IMG/VR virus record: IMGVR_UViG_3300012929_000018
Location: 1-64,000 of that record
Source: a virus
Reading direction: 5' to 3' (one strand)
DNA length: 64,000 nucleotides
Under the pieces are notes generated by a model. It ran no database searches. It had not been told where the DNA came from and saw only the letters and a program-made list of their open reading frames with translations. Below are positions 4,953-62,236 of the stretch, one piece after another (positions within the stretch are counted from its first letter, which is position 1; each line of letters opens with the position of its first letter). The position numbers were made by a program, and so were the translations under genes.

Positions 4953-8637
<3,685 letters not shown>

Positions 8638-8681: not shown

Positions 8682-10119
<1,438 letters not shown>

Positions 10120-10120
<1 letters not shown>

Positions 10121-11504: not shown

Positions 11505-11855
11505 TTACATCGGCCCATCGTTTAGCGCAAGGAAGGTTCCTTCCTCGGGCGTGAATACTTCGCCGCCCGGCGTGGTGACTCGAAGCTGCCAATAATAAAG
11601 TCGGCCGTAGCGAAGCAGCGCGGTTCGGTCGTTTGAAATGGTGACGGTAATGACGCCCTGCTGCGCCGTATAAGTGAACACGATGCCAAGAATCAGGGTT
11701 CCATGGAACAGGGCTGCATCGTCGGAGTCCTGCCGGGAGCGTTTGACGAGAAATTCGACGGTGTGATCGGCCAGATTGTAGGCGTCGCCGTTTGGTTGGG
11801 TAACCTCGAAGGTCAGCGGGACAGTATCGCCGATTAGGATATTAGTGGGCAGCAC
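11505..11855 (-). CDS. Ig-like virion protein, paralogue of 9779-10120
   Basis: A beta-type protein of about 116 residues with VPLTFEVTQPNGD, YNLADHTVEFLVKR, GVITVTIS, LLRYGRLYYWQLRV and an acidic end. The order matches the 113-residue product of 9779-10120. The frame is open back to a TTG at 11927, but that extension would run through the terminator hairpin after the capsid gene. GTG codons at 11870 or 11855 are better; 11855 gives MLPTNILIGD, which aligns with the start of the paralogue. No clear ribosome site, so the start remains uncertain. Confidence 0.6.
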   Translation of the reverse strand: MLPTNILIGDTVPLTFEVTQPNGDAYNLADHTVEFLVKRSRQDSDDAALFHGTLILGIVFTYTAQQGVITVTISNDRTALLRYGRLYYWQLRVTTPGGEVFTPEEGTFLALNDGPM

Positions 11856-11871
11856 GCGTGATACTAACACA

Positions 11872-11901
11872 AAGGGCCGAGGAATCAACCTCGGCCCTTC
11901 G
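11872..11901 (-). terminator. hairpin after the capsid gene
   Basis: On the minus strand an 11-bp stem (AAGGGCCGAGG / CCTCGGCCCTT) with a 6-nt loop begins about 17 nt after the capsid stop codon. A short U-rich stretch follows. It should terminate or reduce transcription after the capsid gene. Confidence 0.75.
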
Positions 11902-11917
11902 GAAACTGAATCAGCTA

Positions 11918-13138
11918 TTAGCTGCAAGCCACGAAATCAGTCGCAGCGGAGCAGCGCAAGTGACGAATCACGAAGCCCAAGTCAGGACGTTCCAACTTGA
12001 TGCCATACGCGAACAGCGCGCGGAAGAACCCGATGTTGCCATCGATGTTACAATCGCGATCTGGGATGTTACGCCACACGAACTCGCCAGCCCAGGAGAA
12101 CTGTTGTTGGTAGCTCATGCCGCCCATCGCCACGCCCGGTTTCGGAATGAGAACTCGGAGCACTTCGTCGTGATAGACGACCGTGTCGATGTAGGCCGCG
12201 TTTTTGTAAACGCTGTCCACTTCCCATTTCTTACCGCGGGTTGCGTTGGAGCTAACATACGGGTAGCGCCGAGTATACACAGGGCCCGCCGTAATGTCGT
12301 ACCGAGGAGCGAACTGGATCGCGGCGAATTTGAAGCCGTGATACACTTTGCCGCCCAGTGTCGGAGCGCCGAGCATAGAACCGGTGACCGGTCCTTGGCC
12401 TTCGAATGCGAACAAGAAGTCATTTCGACCGTTGCTCGATTGGCGCTTTAGCTGGTTGAATTGATAGGTGTCACCAACTGCGGTGTAAACGGCGGTGCCG
12501 TCTTCAACTCGCGCGCTCGGGTTAATCGAGCCACCGTTGAATCCGAGTTGCTGGTGAACCTCTTCGAGAATACCAAACGTCAACTGTGAAGTTGGCGGAA
12601 GGGCCGGGTCAAAGGACGCGGCAATCGTGTTGCGGCCTGCGGCGACGCAGTTACCGGCAGCAGCGATATACTCACTCTGATAGGTGTTTGACCAAACCCA
12701 CTTCGTGTTCTCGCTCATTACGCGGGTCACGTTTTTGATTTGATCCATGACTTGCCACTGGAACTTCAAGTCGTCCAAGCAAATGTCGGGCGAGTTGATG
12801 GCCGCTTTCTTCAAAGCGACTGTGCGAGTCGTGATACCGAACGAATCGATCTTGAACCCAGCAAGCGTACACGCACCGGTGTCGGGCAAGTTATTATCCG
12901 AAAGCGGGGTTGTGTTCAGCGTTGCCATGTTCACGAAGAAGTCCGCGTCGGTGACGGCTTTTGTCACGAGCGACCGCTCGTAGATAGGGTAGCTATACTG
13001 ATAGCCATTCCCGTCGAGCCACGGTTCTTTCGGAAGTTTCTGAATGTAGAAGTCACTCATCTCAATCGACTTCACAACGTCGTTACGAACGAGCATTGCG
13101 TGATCGAGAAACAAGTTCTCCAAGGTTGTACAAGGCAT
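11918..13138 (-). CDS. probable major capsid protein
   Basis: A 406-residue protein placed directly after the scaffold-like gene and the portal, the usual place of the major capsid gene. It has its own promoter, structured leader and downstream terminator, as expected for the most abundant virion protein. Sequence features are mixed alpha/beta with FDPALPPTSQLTFGILEEVHQQL, RVEDGTAVYTAVGD and FVWRNIPDRDCNIDGN blocks; I recognise no signature of the common HK97 or T7 families by eye. The ATG at 13138 is fixed by an in-frame TAG immediately upstream, although no strong ribosome site is seen. Evidence for function is mainly gene order. Confidence 0.72.
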   Translation of the reverse strand: MPCTTLENLFLDHAMLVRNDVVKSIEMSDFYIQKLPKEPWLDGNGYQYSYPIYERSLVTKAVTDADFFVNMATLNTTPLSDNNLPDTGACTLAGFKIDSFGITTRTVALKKAAINSPDICLDDLKFQWQVMDQIKNVTRVMSENTKWVWSNTYQSEYIAAAGNCVAAGRNTIAASFDPALPPTSQLTFGILEEVHQQLGFNGGSINPSARVEDGTAVYTAVGDTYQFNQLKRQSSNGRNDFLFAFEGQGPVTGSMLGAPTLGGKVYHGFKFAAIQFAPRYDITAGPVYTRRYPYVSSNATRGKKWEVDSVYKNAAYIDTVVYHDEVLRVLIPKPGVAMGGMSYQQQFSWAGEFVWRNIPDRDCNIDGNIGFFRALFAYGIKLERPDLGFVIRHLRCSAATDFVACS

Positions 13139-13414: not shown

Positions 13415-14749
13415 TTACGGGGGAAGGACGCCTTGAAGCGCCGTCTTCATCGTTCCTGCGAAGGACGCAGTCTGGTCGACTTTCTTCGGCCCAGTTTCGG
13501 CGACTGTCGGAATCTGACCGTTACCGGCCGGAGCCGCGGACGTGCCGCTGAGCTTCAAAATTCGCGCTTCCTTCTCGCCGATCGTTGCCATAGCCGCACT
13601 CAGTTCTTCGAGCAACAGCGGGAACGCATATGCTTTGTAAAGGGAGTTCGCCAAGTCCTCGTTCGACAGTTTCGCAACGTCCATGTTCTGCACCATCGTT
13701 TGAACTTTCACGATTTCGGCATCACGGGCAGCGTTACCTGTCGGTTTGAAGAATCCGTCAGCGTTCAACTTTCCGGCGGCCGTTTGCAGCGCGCTTTTCC
13801 AGTTGGAATCGAAGGCAGAAGCGGCTTGCGCGGCCTCTGCATCTCGCTGAGCTTGAGTGCTTTTCCACTTCTCGGCGGCGTTTGAAATCTCGGACTGTTT
13901 TCGCTCACTCAACTGATCGATCTTGCCGATAAGTTGGTCAAAACGAACCAAATCCATTCGATTGAAGTTCGCAGACAACTCAGAGAGCTTGTCGGTGCGC
14001 GCAATAGGATCCGGATTAGCCAGAGCCGCAGCAAAATCTGCCGCCGGGACTTGATATTTACCGATGATCGCCTGCAAATCAGTGTTTGCTTTCGCCAAGG
14101 GTTTCGAAATTTCTTTTTGGAAGGCTTCGGTCGCCTCAATGTTGGAAATTGCCAACGCACTTTCGTATCGGGCAATTTTCGCCTTCAACTCGGTTACTTC
14201 GGCAGCGTCAGCGGGAGTGCCCGTCGCGCCTTCCATCGATTTGACCTTGGCAACAAGGGCCGCATTCGCTTTTTGAAGCTCCGCGTTCTGGTCGCGGACG
14301 TGTTTGAACGCCGTTCCAGCCTTAATGTCCATTTTCTTGCCCGCTTCATCAAGCTGAGCATCAGTCGGGCCGCTTTCGGCAGGGCCTGTCGCCGCGCCTG
14401 TGGGCCCCGTGGTCGCATCGGCCGGGCCTGTAGTGGCTGGCGGTGGTCCAGAAGGTCCTGACGCGCTGGGCGCGCCTGTAGCACCTTCCACGCCTGTATA
14501 GGCTTGGCCTGTGACCCCAGTTTGTCCAACTACACCGGGGCCGCCAGTGGCGCCAGTTTGTCCGGCAACCGGACCCGTGGCCGCGGGCGCGCGGTAACGA
14601 GGATCGCCGGGCGCTAGTTCGCCAGAGCGAAGGGCAGTCGCTTCCGGCAAAACGCCGTTAGGAAATAATTCTTGGAGTCGTGCGGCAATCGCTGTCTGGG
14701 CGCTTGAAGGCGCTGAACTGGCGTGCGTGATAGGAGCTTCTTCGGGCAT
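13415..14749 (-). CDS. scaffold-like head protein with collagen-type segment
   Basis: A 444-residue protein between the portal and capsid genes. Residues about 55-135 are a Gly/Thr/Pro-rich segment with collagen-like TGATG, TGVTG and TGPTG units. Residues about 145-345 are strongly helical and charged (ALVAKVKSMEG, ELKAKIARYESALAI, IGKIDQLSERKQSEI) and predict a long coiled coil, as in phage scaffolding proteins. The C-terminal 90 residues are mixed. Position and coiled coil support a scaffolding role; a collagen-like segment in such a protein is unusual. A minor capsid protein is the alternative. Confidence 0.65.
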   Translation of the reverse strand: MPEEAPITHASSAPSSAQTAIAARLQELFPNGVLPEATALRSGELAPGDPRYRAPAATGPVAGQTGATGGPGVVGQTGVTGQAYTGVEGATGAPSASGPSGPPPATTGPADATTGPTGAATGPAESGPTDAQLDEAGKKMDIKAGTAFKHVRDQNAELQKANAALVAKVKSMEGATGTPADAAEVTELKAKIARYESALAISNIEATEAFQKEISKPLAKANTDLQAIIGKYQVPAADFAAALANPDPIARTDKLSELSANFNRMDLVRFDQLIGKIDQLSERKQSEISNAAEKWKSTQAQRDAEAAQAASAFDSNWKSALQTAAGKLNADGFFKPTGNAARDAEIVKVQTMVQNMDVAKLSNEDLANSLYKAYAFPLLLEELSAAMATIGEKEARILKLSGTSAAPAGNGQIPTVAETGPKKVDQTASFAGTMKTALQGVLPP

Positions 14750-14751
14750 AA

Positions 14752-15087
14752 TTAGGTGCTAGCAGGTTGGGCCGGTTTATCCGGCGAGGGAGATTTCCAT
14801 GGCACAAGCGGCGTTTGTGACACCGGTGCCGGTTCGAGTAACGCGAATAGGTTATCGAGTGATTCAAAATAACCGTCTTTGCGCGACCCCATGAGTGCAG
14901 CAACAGCCAAAGGCTCTACTGCGGTAACGGGAGTGAGTTTCATTCCCTTGTCGGAAACGATGGTGAGTGCTTTCTGAAAAACGTCGCTAAGGAGCATCGC
15001 TTTCAAGTCTTCTCGGAAGCTCGGATGAGCGTCCCACTGTTTTTGAGTTATGTGACCGAACATTAGATTTATCGCCTTCCCAGGCAC
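14752..15087 (-). CDS. small head-module protein, 111 aa
   Basis: A 111-residue protein between portal and scaffold. The first two thirds look helical and globular (TQKQWDAHPSFREDLKAMLL, FQKALTIVSDKGMKL) and the last 25 residues are Pro-rich. It ends 2 nt before the scaffold start. No family recognised; a portal- or scaffold-associated role is inferred from position. Confidence 0.6.
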   Translation of the reverse strand: MPGKAINLMFGHITQKQWDAHPSFREDLKAMLLSDVFQKALTIVSDKGMKLTPVTAVEPLAVAALMGSRKDGYFESLDNLFALLEPAPVSQTPLVPWKSPSPDKPAQPAST

Positions 15088-15120: not shown

Positions 15121-17412
15121 TTATTGTGGCGGCGCGGGAAGAACCGGAGGATTTGGATTTGGAGCTAACGCGGGTTGGACGCCCGGCGGCTGCACGGCGA
15201 TAGGCGCGCCTGTGCCAATCGCACCGTGACGAAGTTTCGCGGCTGCTTCGGCATCTTTGAGCGCCCGATTCTGCTCGGACTCGCGCTGCTTAATTTCGCG
15301 ACGAACCTCAGCGTCCTTCACTAACTCTTGGCGTTTGACTTGGCCGTCCCTCATCATTTCCTGCTCTTTAGGAGTAGGTGGCAGGGGTTGCTGTGATTGC
15401 TGCTGTTGCTGCACTGCGGCATGCCGCATAGCATGTTCTTGCGCTGCGCGGATTCGTTCGGAAGTGTTATTCCATTGCCGGGTCAACTCGCCCACGAGAT
15501 TCTTCTGCAACGAATCCGGTTTGAGCAACTTCATGTGCTCGGCGGTGTGCTGACCCTTCAATTGGATGATTTGTAAAAGTTGGTCGTCGCCGCCGCCGGA
15601 TTCAGTTGTGGTCAAATCTAGGTCCAGATCAGGCAAGTGAGTCTGCAAATGAATGATGTGATTGTCGTTGCCGCGCTCTGTCATCGGCTTTCCCGCGGAC
15701 ATAGCGAAATTCTGCAACTCCGCGATTTCCTGATCGGCTGGCGCGCGAGCGCCCTTATCGAGTCGCGGCACGTATTCGTCCACCTGAGCGTAACCTACCC
15801 GCTGCGCGAACTTGTCGCGAAGAAGGTTGTTCTGACCGACGGGGTCCAGCGAGCCGTAGTATTGCATGAACTCGTCAAAGGCCAGTAATCGGTTGGTCGG
15901 AGAGCCGTAACCAACCGCGCGGAACGGAGTAATAACATCTGCCTGCAAAATTGCTTCTAGTGGAACTTCGCGTTTCAAGCAGCGTTCGCGCATCGCCAAA
16001 ATTTCTTTTCCGCCCGGCTGCTCTGCGGTTACGTCTTTGCGACGCGCGCGGCGCCATACTTCGGAAAGGTGGCGGCCCCATGGCTGATAAAACAAATTCA
16101 AGTTCGCAGTCGGGAGAATAGCTTCCTTCGTCAACTGAGCAGCAATTTCGAGGCGCGTCTTATCGTTCGACGTGTCCGCCTTGCTGCTCTGCAAATCTCC
16201 GGAGTTTTGCCGGAGCGTCAGACTCATTTCCTGAATAATGGGCAGGATACCTTGCGACGGGTTATTGAGTTCCCCATTCTGCACTTTGACATTCGGTGGG
16301 ATATAAGTCGCGCCCGCGTAGAACAGAATCGCCATGTCCTCGGCGGACGTTTCGCTCTGCGGCTGCAGCAATAAGCTGCCGGACAATTTGGCGTTGTCTA
16401 CCGTCTGACAGCGCAGGGAGTTGAGCACCTGCACCGCCGCTAAAATTTCATGACCGAGTCCGCGGACAGAATGCAGCGACCCGTTAGATCCCATCTCGTA
16501 GGCGAAGTAGGTGAAGCACTGGTCGATGCCGTCATAACGGTTCTCGCATTTGAACAGATACTCTGTGTTAGACCCGTCCCGCAAAGTCAGGTAGTAAGAA
16601 ACCGTTCCATCAAATTCTCGTATCCACGCGTGAGCCAGCGAAATGTTAGTCTGGGCCGAAGCGGAGGCGAACAGATCATTGTTCTTCGCCATCTCTTGCC
16701 ATTTCTCCCATACACCCGGAGCAGTTAGTTGCTGGCCCGGAGCGTGTGCGTTAAGAATTGCTTGGCGAACGGCATCTTTGTTCCAGCGTTTATCGGCATC
16801 GTCGGCTTCTTCCATCCACTTATACATTTTGCCGACGGTGATTTCACGGAACACAACCGCCATATCCAAATTGTCCTCAACCATGTCGACCTGACGTGGG
16901 AGTTTGAAATCATCTAAACCGGCGACAGACCAACGCCAGTCAATGTCATCCGAAAAATAAAGGAAACCCAAACCATGCGAAGTAAACTTCTGAACGAGAA
17001 GCTGGAAAGAAGGATCGAACGCCTTCCAGTCTTTGAGCATGCGATGAAACTCTTCGGAGATAATGTTACTCCAATGAGCGCGATCGGTGTCATCACCAAT
17101 CGGGGTAAAGATTCGGGCCAGCAGAGGAACTGAATCGGTCAGATCATAATAACCCGCCTGCTCAGCTTTTACACGCGCCTTACCGTCACCGAAGTTAAGG
17201 TTACAGCGACCCTCTTGGCCGGACTGCTGAATCTGCACCGGATCGAATGGCGGCGCGCCGTCGAGCATTTTTTGCACGTCTATGCGGCCCAAAGCGGAAC
17301 CTTCATCAGCGGTCACCATTGCCTTGATAACGAAATTCAGACTCTGCGCGTCTTTAATTCGGTTCTTTGGCGCGGCCTTAGTTACTGGATCGAGTGTTTC
17401 TAGGTCAGCCAT
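15121..17412 (-). CDS. portal protein
   Basis: A 763-residue protein directly downstream of the terminase gene. It carries portal-like features: an N-terminal acidic helix-rich head region with repeated aromatic positions, a Gly/Asn/Leu-rich core (LGFLYFSDDIDW, GLGHEILAAVQVLN), and a long charged, Gln-rich helical C-terminus (QQQQQSQQ, then REIKQRESEQNRALKDAE), as in the large portals of short-tailed phages. It would form the ring at one capsid vertex for DNA passage. The ATG overlaps an upstream in-frame TAA (TAATG), with an AAGAAG ribosome site. The length points to a podovirus-like portal, but the assignment rests on order and overall character. Confidence 0.75.
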   Translation of the reverse strand: MADLETLDPVTKAAPKNRIKDAQSLNFVIKAMVTADEGSALGRIDVQKMLDGAPPFDPVQIQQSGQEGRCNLNFGDGKARVKAEQAGYYDLTDSVPLLARIFTPIGDDTDRAHWSNIISEEFHRMLKDWKAFDPSFQLLVQKFTSHGLGFLYFSDDIDWRWSVAGLDDFKLPRQVDMVEDNLDMAVVFREITVGKMYKWMEEADDADKRWNKDAVRQAILNAHAPGQQLTAPGVWEKWQEMAKNNDLFASASAQTNISLAHAWIREFDGTVSYYLTLRDGSNTEYLFKCENRYDGIDQCFTYFAYEMGSNGSLHSVRGLGHEILAAVQVLNSLRCQTVDNAKLSGSLLLQPQSETSAEDMAILFYAGATYIPPNVKVQNGELNNPSQGILPIIQEMSLTLRQNSGDLQSSKADTSNDKTRLEIAAQLTKEAILPTANLNLFYQPWGRHLSEVWRRARRKDVTAEQPGGKEILAMRERCLKREVPLEAILQADVITPFRAVGYGSPTNRLLAFDEFMQYYGSLDPVGQNNLLRDKFAQRVGYAQVDEYVPRLDKGARAPADQEIAELQNFAMSAGKPMTERGNDNHIIHLQTHLPDLDLDLTTTESGGGDDQLLQIIQLKGQHTAEHMKLLKPDSLQKNLVGELTRQWNNTSERIRAAQEHAMRHAAVQQQQQSQQPLPPTPKEQEMMRDGQVKRQELVKDAEVRREIKQRESEQNRALKDAEAAAKLRHGAIGTGAPIAVQPPGVQPALAPNPNPPVLPAPPQ

Positions 17413-17466: not shown

Positions 17467-19278
17467 TCAAGGACGTAACCACCTTGGGTTAGGATTAGCT
17501 CGCACAAGTTGGGACGGCATACTGCCCTGCGCTCCCAGCCGACGGCGAAGCATGCCCCAGCCGGTGTTGCCGACAAGAGGTTTATTAGTCGCGCGCATAT
17601 TCTCGGGAATCTTCGGCGCAAAACCAAGCCGCTGGCGCGCCAAGTCTAGAACGATAAAGCCAGAATCTGCGTAGTCAGGGCTGCATTGCATTCGGAGCTT
17701 CATGAATTTCTTCGACTCCGCGTAGATCAGTTTGTCGGCACCTGTGGTGCCATATTTGCGTTGGCACATCTGAGTCGCCATCATGCCGGGAATATTCTTC
17801 AACTGCCCGGCGCGAAGATACTCTTTACCCGAATACCAAATCTCCGTAACCCGGTCGTAGTATCGCTTATCCGCCGGAGTAGGATCGGTGAAACTAACTG
17901 GTCGGTCGCTGGGAGCGCCGCCAAACATGACGCGGAGCATACCTCGGCCCCACACAAGGTCCATCACATCACAGAACGGGGAGCCAGCGCCAGTGGCATC
18001 GCACGCCGTGTTGACGATTTCGATGTTGCGCTTGACGCACTCGTCCATGAACAGCTTGCATATCTGCTGTGAGCGATTTTCTACTTCCAATTTCCGAACA
18101 TCTTCCACCAGTTCGATTTGCTCGCCATAACTGAGCGTCAGGAGCCCAGCGGTCGAGTAACCGATTGTGGCGAGTGTCATAATCGACTTATCGCCGCCAT
18201 TCGTGAAGCCGGGGTCAAGGCCCGCGCACTGCACGATTGGGCGCTCGTCCCAAACCACCGGCCCGTCGCCTTCATTCGCGATAATGTCCGGCTGGGTATA
18301 AATCAGGTCTTCCTCTCCGACAGGCGATGGAAAGCCGCGGATCATACGCCAAAAGCGTAAAGAGTTTTCGCCGCCCTCGGCTTTACGTGCCGCTTCGATT
18401 TGATCGGCCGTCGGTAAAAATGGATATAAAGTCTTGCCGGCAATAATGTTAGGAGATTTCATGGCGTCGAAGTGCATCGACACGCCGTGCTCAGACTCCC
18501 AGCGATAGCTCTCGACGTTGATTTCTCCCCAGCCTTTCTTCGGCTTCCAAAGCTTCGCGAATGGGTCGAAATAGCCGGGCGGGTTGGCAAGGCCGATAAA
18601 TTGGTGCTTCGGGTTGGTGCACAGGTTTCCGCCCGGTAGGGCATATTCCAAGATCGCCTCGGTGAGTTCTGACAACTCATCGCCGACGATGATGACTTCC
18701 TCGTTGTGCATACCGATCAGTTTACCGACGGCCTCTTTCGCCTTCGAGCGTTCCGCCGCAATCAACGCCAAGCTGCTTTTGTCAGACGACACAAACGTCG
18801 GGGAAACGTAGCGAATCACGTTCAACGACGCCATGACTTTGAGAGGCAGCGCCGGGACCGCGTTCACCAAATCCGTCATAGAGCCCCAGATACGACGCTT
18901 GGCCGCCGGGATCGAGGTTGAGAGGACGCCGCCGAGAATCTTGCGCGCGTTCGCGAGATACTTAACTAGCAGCCACAAACCCGCGGTCTCTGATTTAGTC
19001 GTGCCACCACCGCCGCCGAAGGCTGCGTAGGAATAATGGCACAATTCTTCAATCATATCCTCGCTCCATGGGTTGCGGACGAAAATTTTTGTGCGGTTGT
19101 TTACGACGTTCTTTGGGCCCCAAACCATTTCGACGACCTTCCAAAAGTGTTCGGCTTGGCCGAGGCCGCCCTTGTCAACGGGGTGCGCGATCCGAAAGCA
19201 ATAAAGCTCTTGGTCGAGGCGACTCCACTTGGGCGAGAACTTTAGCTCATACCGCTGATTCGTCTGTTCTGTAGGCAT
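17467..19278 (-). CDS. terL: terminase large subunit
   Basis: A 603-residue packaging motor and nuclease. The ATPase domain has a variant Walker A loop (GGGGGTTKSE, residues 88-97) and Walker B VIIVGDE (195-201). The nuclease domain has the RNase H-like acidic positions: GLDPG (Asp 355), CDATG (Asp 427) and PDYADSG (near 535-538). It would translocate and cut DNA at the portal. It is the first gene of the minus-strand virion operon and is divergent from the RuvC-like gene. No small subunit adjoins it; the HTH protein at 42962-43540 is a possible partner. Confidence 0.92.
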   Translation of the reverse strand: MPTEQTNQRYELKFSPKWSRLDQELYCFRIAHPVDKGGLGQAEHFWKVVEMVWGPKNVVNNRTKIFVRNPWSEDMIEELCHYSYAAFGGGGGTTKSETAGLWLLVKYLANARKILGGVLSTSIPAAKRRIWGSMTDLVNAVPALPLKVMASLNVIRYVSPTFVSSDKSSLALIAAERSKAKEAVGKLIGMHNEEVIIVGDELSELTEAILEYALPGGNLCTNPKHQFIGLANPPGYFDPFAKLWKPKKGWGEINVESYRWESEHGVSMHFDAMKSPNIIAGKTLYPFLPTADQIEAARKAEGGENSLRFWRMIRGFPSPVGEEDLIYTQPDIIANEGDGPVVWDERPIVQCAGLDPGFTNGGDKSIMTLATIGYSTAGLLTLSYGEQIELVEDVRKLEVENRSQQICKLFMDECVKRNIEIVNTACDATGAGSPFCDVMDLVWGRGMLRVMFGGAPSDRPVSFTDPTPADKRYYDRVTEIWYSGKEYLRAGQLKNIPGMMATQMCQRKYGTTGADKLIYAESKKFMKLRMQCSPDYADSGFIVLDLARQRLGFAPKIPENMRATNKPLVGNTGWGMLRRRLGAQGSMPSQLVRANPNPRWLRP

Positions 19279-61002: not shown

Positions 61003-61385
61003 ACACACAACAAACATCCGCCAGTAAAATTGAGGACCTGCCCCCGGCCAAATCACAACGACACGAACTTCATCTACGCATCTGTATGGATGATTTTCGT
61101 GGAGACTTCGCGGGAAGGCGTGCGCTCGAAACCACATTCGAACTCATTGAGAAGGTGAAGGCAGCGGTCTTTTCCAAGGGCGGCAAGATCATGTCATTCA
61201 AATTCGACAATACTCCGACGCGCGATGCCAATCCAGGCGGCGACATTGCCACACTAAGCTTCGATATTCGCACGCCGTATCATTGCGTGGCTACGCTTGA
61301 GTATTTATTCTACAGTTGGGTTGAGCCACTGAGTCCACAGGGGCATCAGTCCACGGTGGCTATCAACTTCAAGGTTCAGCTATGA
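60999..61385 (+). CDS. hypothetical protein, 128 aa
   Basis: Mixed alpha/beta protein: [33 protein letters not shown], then strands FKFDNTP and [10 protein letters not shown]. No motif recognised. Confidence 0.62.
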
Positions 61386-62236
61386 GGAAATTCTTTTTGA
61401 TTTGCTTGCTCGCTGTAAGTCTGTGCGGTGCTGTCGCCGCACAGACGCCTGCGTTGAGCGGATTCGTTTACGACGGCGGCGTGTTCACCGATGGAACGAC
61501 TTTGATCCTTGGCCAGACCTACACGGTGTGGGGAATGGCGAACGCCGACGCGCACAGCGTTGTGTTCAGCAAAGACGGCGTCACCATGAAGGTCGATCAG
61601 ACAGACCCTTACTCTTTCACGTGGGCACCCAACGCACTAGGCGCTCACATCATTGCCGCAAGGCCGTGGAGTTCAACAACTGGCACGGGAATCTTCGGCT
61701 CAGTAATCCTAGTGCACTACAATGTAATCAATGCTACCCAAACACCTACCCCAACACCGACGCCTACCCCTACAGGAACTCCGACACCATCTCCAATTCC
61801 GACTCAGTCGCCAACGCCAACAGCGACGCCGACTCCTACAGGAACTCCAACACCAACCATTTCTCCAACAGGAACTCCAACTCCGACGCCAACAGGAAGT
61901 CCGACGCCGTCTCCGACTCCTACTGGGACCCCAAGCAGTACTCCGATACCTACCCCCACACCTATCGGTGGAACCAAAGTCGTCACTTTCGCATGGTCCG
62001 GCACCGCTGACACCTTATGGTATGGAGCTAAGAGCGAGGCAGTGGTTCAGAACTATACCGGTGTCATCTGCGCACCTGCCACAACGTGCACAGGCACAGC
62101 CTTCCCACTCTCCCATAGCCTCGTGCTACCCGTAGGAGTGCAGACGGTTAAGGTCAGCATGGCTACGGGGCAACATTACTTCGTTGTCGTTAGCAACGCT
62201 GGCGGCAACAGCAACCTGATTGAATTTGATTTATGA
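61382..62236 (+). CDS. exported two-domain protein with PT linker
   Basis: A 284-residue exported protein with a signal peptide ([18 protein letters not shown]), an Ig-like domain (to about 120), an 80-residue (PT)n/PTGTPTPTP linker, and a second beta domain ([16 protein letters not shown]...). The linker resembles those joining domains in bacterial extracellular enzymes. It should be secreted or surface-exposed, unusual for a phage gene in this position. Binding role is likely; target unknown. Confidence 0.75.

Follow-up and report, generated by a model that had tools for sequence, protein, structure and literature searches.

Why should a protein with the appearance of a viral head scaffold contain a stretch resembling collagen? 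The question is raised by a protein of 444 residues encoded on the minus strand (13415..14749) of the window that we have analyzed, a stretch of 64,000 nucleotides corresponding to bases 1-64000 of the virus record IMGVR_UViG_3300012929_000018, which totals 82,502 bases. A previous sequence-only reading had seen in residues 55-135 of this protein a collagen-type segment preceding a long coiled coil, and had suggested that it might link head assembly to collagen-rich parts of the virion. In the available text of the cited sources, collagen-like parts of phages are reported for tail fibres (PMC5155283, PMC3368898) and for gp12 of SPP1 (PMC6813328, PMC6316719); among the matches listed, the open-licence literature contained no description of a collagen-like scaffold. 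Here we present evidence for an explanation to which we assign a probability of about 0.78: the protein is an internal head scaffold, the N-terminal flexible tether of which has drifted toward a collagen-like composition.

Gene Order around the Scaffold-Like Protein

The genes of interest follow one another on the minus strand, from terminase to a protein in portal position, an ORF of 111 residues, the 444-residue protein, a capsid-like protein, smaller proteins and finally three collagen-like fibre genes. The large subunit of the terminase (17467..19278) was recognized by a tblastn match to an annotated terminase (E 1e-7), its matches in the phage collection being only distant, and the terminases of two relatives match phrog_2. 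The next protein (15121..17412, 763 residues) is assigned to the portal from its position and size alone; it had no match to portal profiles, and tblastn of the phage collection was also empty. Between this and the scaffold-like gene lies the small ORF (14752..15087), for which family profile searches returned no match. The scaffold-like protein itself begins with an ATG codon and is followed by a protein of 406 residues (11918..13138) resembling a major capsid protein by virtue of its position and of a low-confidence model with weak fold matches. This model is poor (mean pLDDT 45); the 30 Foldseek matches listed against solved structures are mostly phage capsid chains, none of which is significant, with E never below 0.011, and the best Z of 7.7 falls within a range that the structure-comparison tool rates as common. 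Neither the scaffold-like nor the capsid-like protein had any tblastn match in the phage collection.

Relatives of this locus were sought among viral contigs. A query of viral_contigs with nothing but the scaffold-like protein of the window retrieved no relative. With the capsid protein as the sole query two contigs came up, each having a scaffold homologue devoid of a Gly-X-Y run, and a three-row scaffold profile retrieved only the same two contigs. A two-row capsid profile then identified 46 related loci, to which L056 was added with a profile of the portal-position protein, for a total of 47 loci; scanning genome_contigs yielded no relative. Searching the reading frames of these loci with a profile, we located in 44 of the 46 a homologue of the 444-residue protein lying upstream of the capsid gene; in L018 and L043, the remaining two, the match to the capsid begins at contig positions 108 and 578, respectively. 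The portal-position protein is present upstream in 23 of the 47 loci and the terminase in 7, many loci ending before it. The gene thus lies on the same strand as the portal gene, which is named by position only, and the major capsid gene, and between the two, as expected of a scaffold. Its distance from the capsid gene is 0.2-1.7 kb in ten measured loci, but the two do not always adjoin each other, for a gap of 3.7-4.1 kb is present in L040, L041, L047, and L048.

Identity with the protein of the window ranges from 18% to 40% in an alignment of 22 sequences, and residues 130-400 are 34-42% identical to those of the six closest relatives. The counts given below are based upon 34 distinct relatives plus the protein of the window, that is 35 aligned proteins, after leaving out exact duplicates (nine loci), L033 and L049, the scaffold frame of which is split, and L018 and L043, which have none within reach. 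Such counts are not independent, because several relatives are nearly identical.

Predicted Architecture

The protein was modelled as a monomer with AlphaFold2 using the 22-sequence alignment, obtaining a mean pLDDT of 66 and a pTM of 0.39. The model predicts a short N-terminal helix at residues 16-28 (14666..14704, minus strand as for all the features of this protein), with pLDDT of about 50-68 by block, which is alignable across the family among the 17 of 35 rows listed. Nothing is modelled with confidence in residues 32-126 (14372..14656; pLDDT below 50), which encompass most of the collagen-like segment. There follows a predicted helical core resembling a coiled coil at residues 130-400 (13550..14362), best modelled near residues 210-300, then a second loose linker at residues 402-430 (13460..13546; pLDDT below 50) and the C-terminal end (13418..13462), with a short helix at residues 430-437 in which F430 is nearly invariant among the 22 sequences. 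Fold searches with this model found no significant match among solved or viral structures (best E 2.2 and 0.11, respectively), and when the scaffold profile was run against the sequences of solved structures, no hit had an E below 0.3.

How might such a protein work? The short N-terminal helix would be tethered by a disordered, low-complexity linker to the long helical core, which could constitute the oligomeric body of the scaffold, while the second loose linker would bear the short helix of the C-terminal end, by which the scaffold probably holds on to the capsid protein. This layout is reminiscent of the scaffold of 80alpha, in which, according to the available text of the source, a C-terminal helix-and-hook sits on the capsid protein and a flexible linker has been proposed; the same text describes scaffolds as helical, prone to form coiled coils, and flexible, and refers to a conserved C-terminal motif (PMC5644958). 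The likeness is one of layout, as predicted by the model for the protein of the window.

Taken together, synteny and architecture indicate that the protein is probably a scaffold, as the sequence-only reading had supposed, with profile matches adding weaker support. With a cut of E 0.01, 5 of 22 members match phrog_4708, a head scaffolding protein, the best of them at 1.5e-5, and the protein of the window matches it with E 0.012; these weak matches span the linker and the start of the core. One member of the 22 also matches PF06810 (Phage_scaffold) with E 0.0056. The locus provides a lineage, known here from IMG/VR contigs only, with a likely scaffold family and the capsid protein that goes with it.

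The Gly-X-Y Pattern and Its Conservation

Gly accounts for 19 of the 81 residues at positions 55-135, Ala for 15, Thr for 14, and Pro for 12. The longest run of Gly-X-Y triplets in the protein comprises seven consecutive triplets at residues 63-83 (14501..14563) and contains a single Pro; a second run of three triplets spans residues 86-94 (14468..14494), past which all runs are shorter than three triplets. Shuffling the segment 20,000 times gave a run of seven on 14 occasions, and shuffling the whole protein 5,000 times never did, a rarity indicating that the order of residues in the segment is not due to chance. This evidence needs to be set against the collagen-like fibre proteins. Counting only runs of at least three, the scaffold-like protein has 10 triplets, and the window's three fibre genes have 32, 73, and 127; the products of these genes match Pfam Collagen (PF01391) with E of 2.4e-8, 1e-19, and 1e-35, whereas the scaffold-like protein does not match this family at E up to 1. 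Of the 14 Pfam Collagen matches in the whole record, none falls inside its gene.

The comparison with homologues shows that a Gly-X-Y stretch inside a protein ought to be examined in this way before it is named collagen. We defined the linker by alignment columns 54-251; that every protein has some linker is therefore partly a matter of definition, and it is the composition that provides the evidence. In the 35 aligned proteins the linker, which separates a short helical motif near the N-terminus from the helical core, is of low complexity and 60-129 residues long. It consists for 74-93% of P, A, G, T, S, E, K, and D, and bulky hydrophobic residues account for 6-17% of it versus 25-29% of the core. 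The claim that scaffolds normally lack such a segment hence fails in this family as far as low-complexity linkers are concerned, for all 35 proteins have one. In the 28 more distant relatives the linker, in which Pro, Ala, Glu, and Lys abound, measures 60-88 residues; it reaches 106-129 residues in the seven closest members, including that of the window, with a Gly content of 20% in the window, 14% in L056, 13% in L008, 8% in L051, 7% in L052, 6% in L009, and 3% in L007. Runs of at least four Gly-X-Y triplets occur in none of the 34 relatives, the longest having three triplets, in L056. What the homologues lack is thus the Gly-X-Y run and not the linker, which in them has another low-complexity make-up; this is one half of the result by which the sequence-only reading would have been refuted. 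A point against free drift of the linker is that the identity of aligned columns is not always lower there than in the core; gaps and composition differ more.

We conclude that residues 55-135 are rich in Gly, Thr, and Pro and precede a long, predicted helical region, as initially noticed, but that a collagen-type domain is not borne out: we rejected it in view of the missing Pfam Collagen match together with the homologues without the run. Most likely, the collagen-like stretch serves as a loose spacer that changes fast and separates two helical parts. In mechanistic terms, the flagged segment would be the first linker of the scaffold, having the job of providing reach and flexibility, and its make-up would drift because length and looseness matter more than the exact residues: Gly, Thr, Pro, and Ala in the window, Pro and Ala or Pro, Ala, Glu, and Lys in relatives. 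The seven triplets would then be a by-product of the growth of low-complexity repeats, probably without formation of a triple helix.

Collagen Genes and Scaffold Linkers in the Same Records

Does the linker follow the collagen content of the viruses possessing it? Pfam Collagen was searched in 28 records with a cut of E up to 0.001, finding 12 positive records, that of the window included, 10 of which exceed the cut-off of the family. The motif TGxTG, which occurs in the linker of four of the seven closest members, is absent from the scaffold linker in 9 of these 12 collagen-bearing records. The motif is present in 3 of 12 collagen-positive records and in 1 of the 16 that are collagen-negative (Fisher p 0.28, uncorrected for relatedness; some of the records are fragments, and for four of them a locus encoding the same protein was used). 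The absence of collagen genes from some records says little, because these are short fragments. On this basis we rejected a tie between the collagen content of a record and TGxTG in its linker. L007 has 16 Pfam Collagen matches, and yet its linker contains only 3% Gly. Collagen fibres do not need a collagen-like scaffold linker. The proposed link to collagen-rich virion parts found no support in these data; given that relatives have spacers of other make-up at the same place, the segment looks ordinary rather than like a collagen connection from head to fibres.

Alternative Explanations

Could the protein instead remain in the virion, its linker exposed, as a head fibre or a minor component of the capsid? 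In Gly-rich members, profiles of tail and tail-fibre proteins score as well as, or better than, phrog_4708: phrog_819 (E 0.0013) and phrog_30509, a tail/fibre profile, match the protein of the window, while phrog_8745 matches L008 (E 1e-8) and L056 (E 6.1e-7), and some of the matching stretches extend from the linker into the core, up to residue 327-337. It is for the matches in L008 and L056 that we have given this possibility more weight. The precedent comes from SPP1, the gp12 of which is a separate collagen-like protein of 64 residues, an accessory protein on the surface of the capsid; its gene lies between those for scaffold and capsid (PMC6813328, PMC6316719), so that in both cases, judging from the available text of these sources, a collagen-like segment is encoded within the cluster of head genes. 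In our window, however, the segment belongs to the scaffold-like protein itself, and the relatives do not conserve its Gly-X-Y pattern. Moreover, the window's collagen-like fibre proteins score with these tail profiles too, and in the scaffold-like proteins the matches start in the Gly-rich stretch, so that composition may drive them; position as well as architecture fit a scaffold. A lasting place in the virion thus appears unlikely.

The remaining alternatives take the Gly-X-Y pattern at face value. The run might form a short collagen triple helix within a trimer held together by the coiled coil, setting the oligomeric state or docking collagen-rich parts of the virion. Besides the seven consecutive triplets, so seldom reproduced by shuffling, the three fibre genes of the window and the TGxTG motifs of the closest members speak for it; the low pLDDT of the monomer model may be compatible with a triple helix that forms only in the trimer. 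We nonetheless consider it quite improbable, in view of the lack of conservation of the run, the single Pro, the missing Pfam match, and the collagen-bearing records without the motif. Phage tail fibres that are collagen-like have Gly-X-Y repeats as do the fibre genes of our window (PMC5155283, PMC3368898, in their available text), unlike the isolated run of seven triplets, without Pfam Collagen match, in the scaffold segment. The flavour that TGxTG gives to the closest group might reflect selection on the pattern, rather than drift alone. Extending this argument, the linker could now work as a short trimeric, collagen-like clamp, with the motif in four of seven members as the mark of selection; this we hold to be very improbable, and we know of no earlier case of a collagen-like clamp in an internal scaffold. 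A recent copying of the segment from the fibre genes of the phage by recombination would account for the TGxTG flavour common to both and for the weak similarity, at the protein level, to 7280-7408 (E 9.1e-4). Yet the longest of 42 DNA matches covers 20 bases with 2 mismatches, the longest exact match is of 12 bases, and the relatives have linkers at the same place anyway, making this origin, by gene conversion from the fibre genes, hardly credible.

Other Features of the Window and Related Loci

Additional proteins deserve mention. At the beginning of the window, on the minus strand (47-784), a protein of 245 residues judged by eye to be a membrane protein carries 15 Gly-X-Y triplets in a row close to its C-terminus, and toward the other end of the window, on the plus strand (61382-62236), a protein of 284 residues contains a long repeat of Thr and Pro along with what looks by eye like a signal peptide. 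Two minus-strand proteins of phrog_1084, a family of unknown function, adjoin the fibre genes at 9779-10120 (E 4.6e-19) and 11505-11927 (E 3.6e-12).

Among the related loci, L008 (7339-7800, 153 residues) and L009 (7142-7549, 135 residues) have an ORF between the scaffold and capsid genes, the site of the collagen-like capsid accessory gene in SPP1. In L051 (7815-9240) and L052 (7944-9238) the capsid gene is in two overlapping frames, owing to a sequencing frameshift or to a real one. Finally, the capsid protein of L047 (7971-9539) has 522 residues, whereas the 14 others that were aligned with it measure 388-446; as one member of this alignment matches tail-fibre and virion-structural profiles, with E down to 1.7e-18, an extra surface domain is possible.
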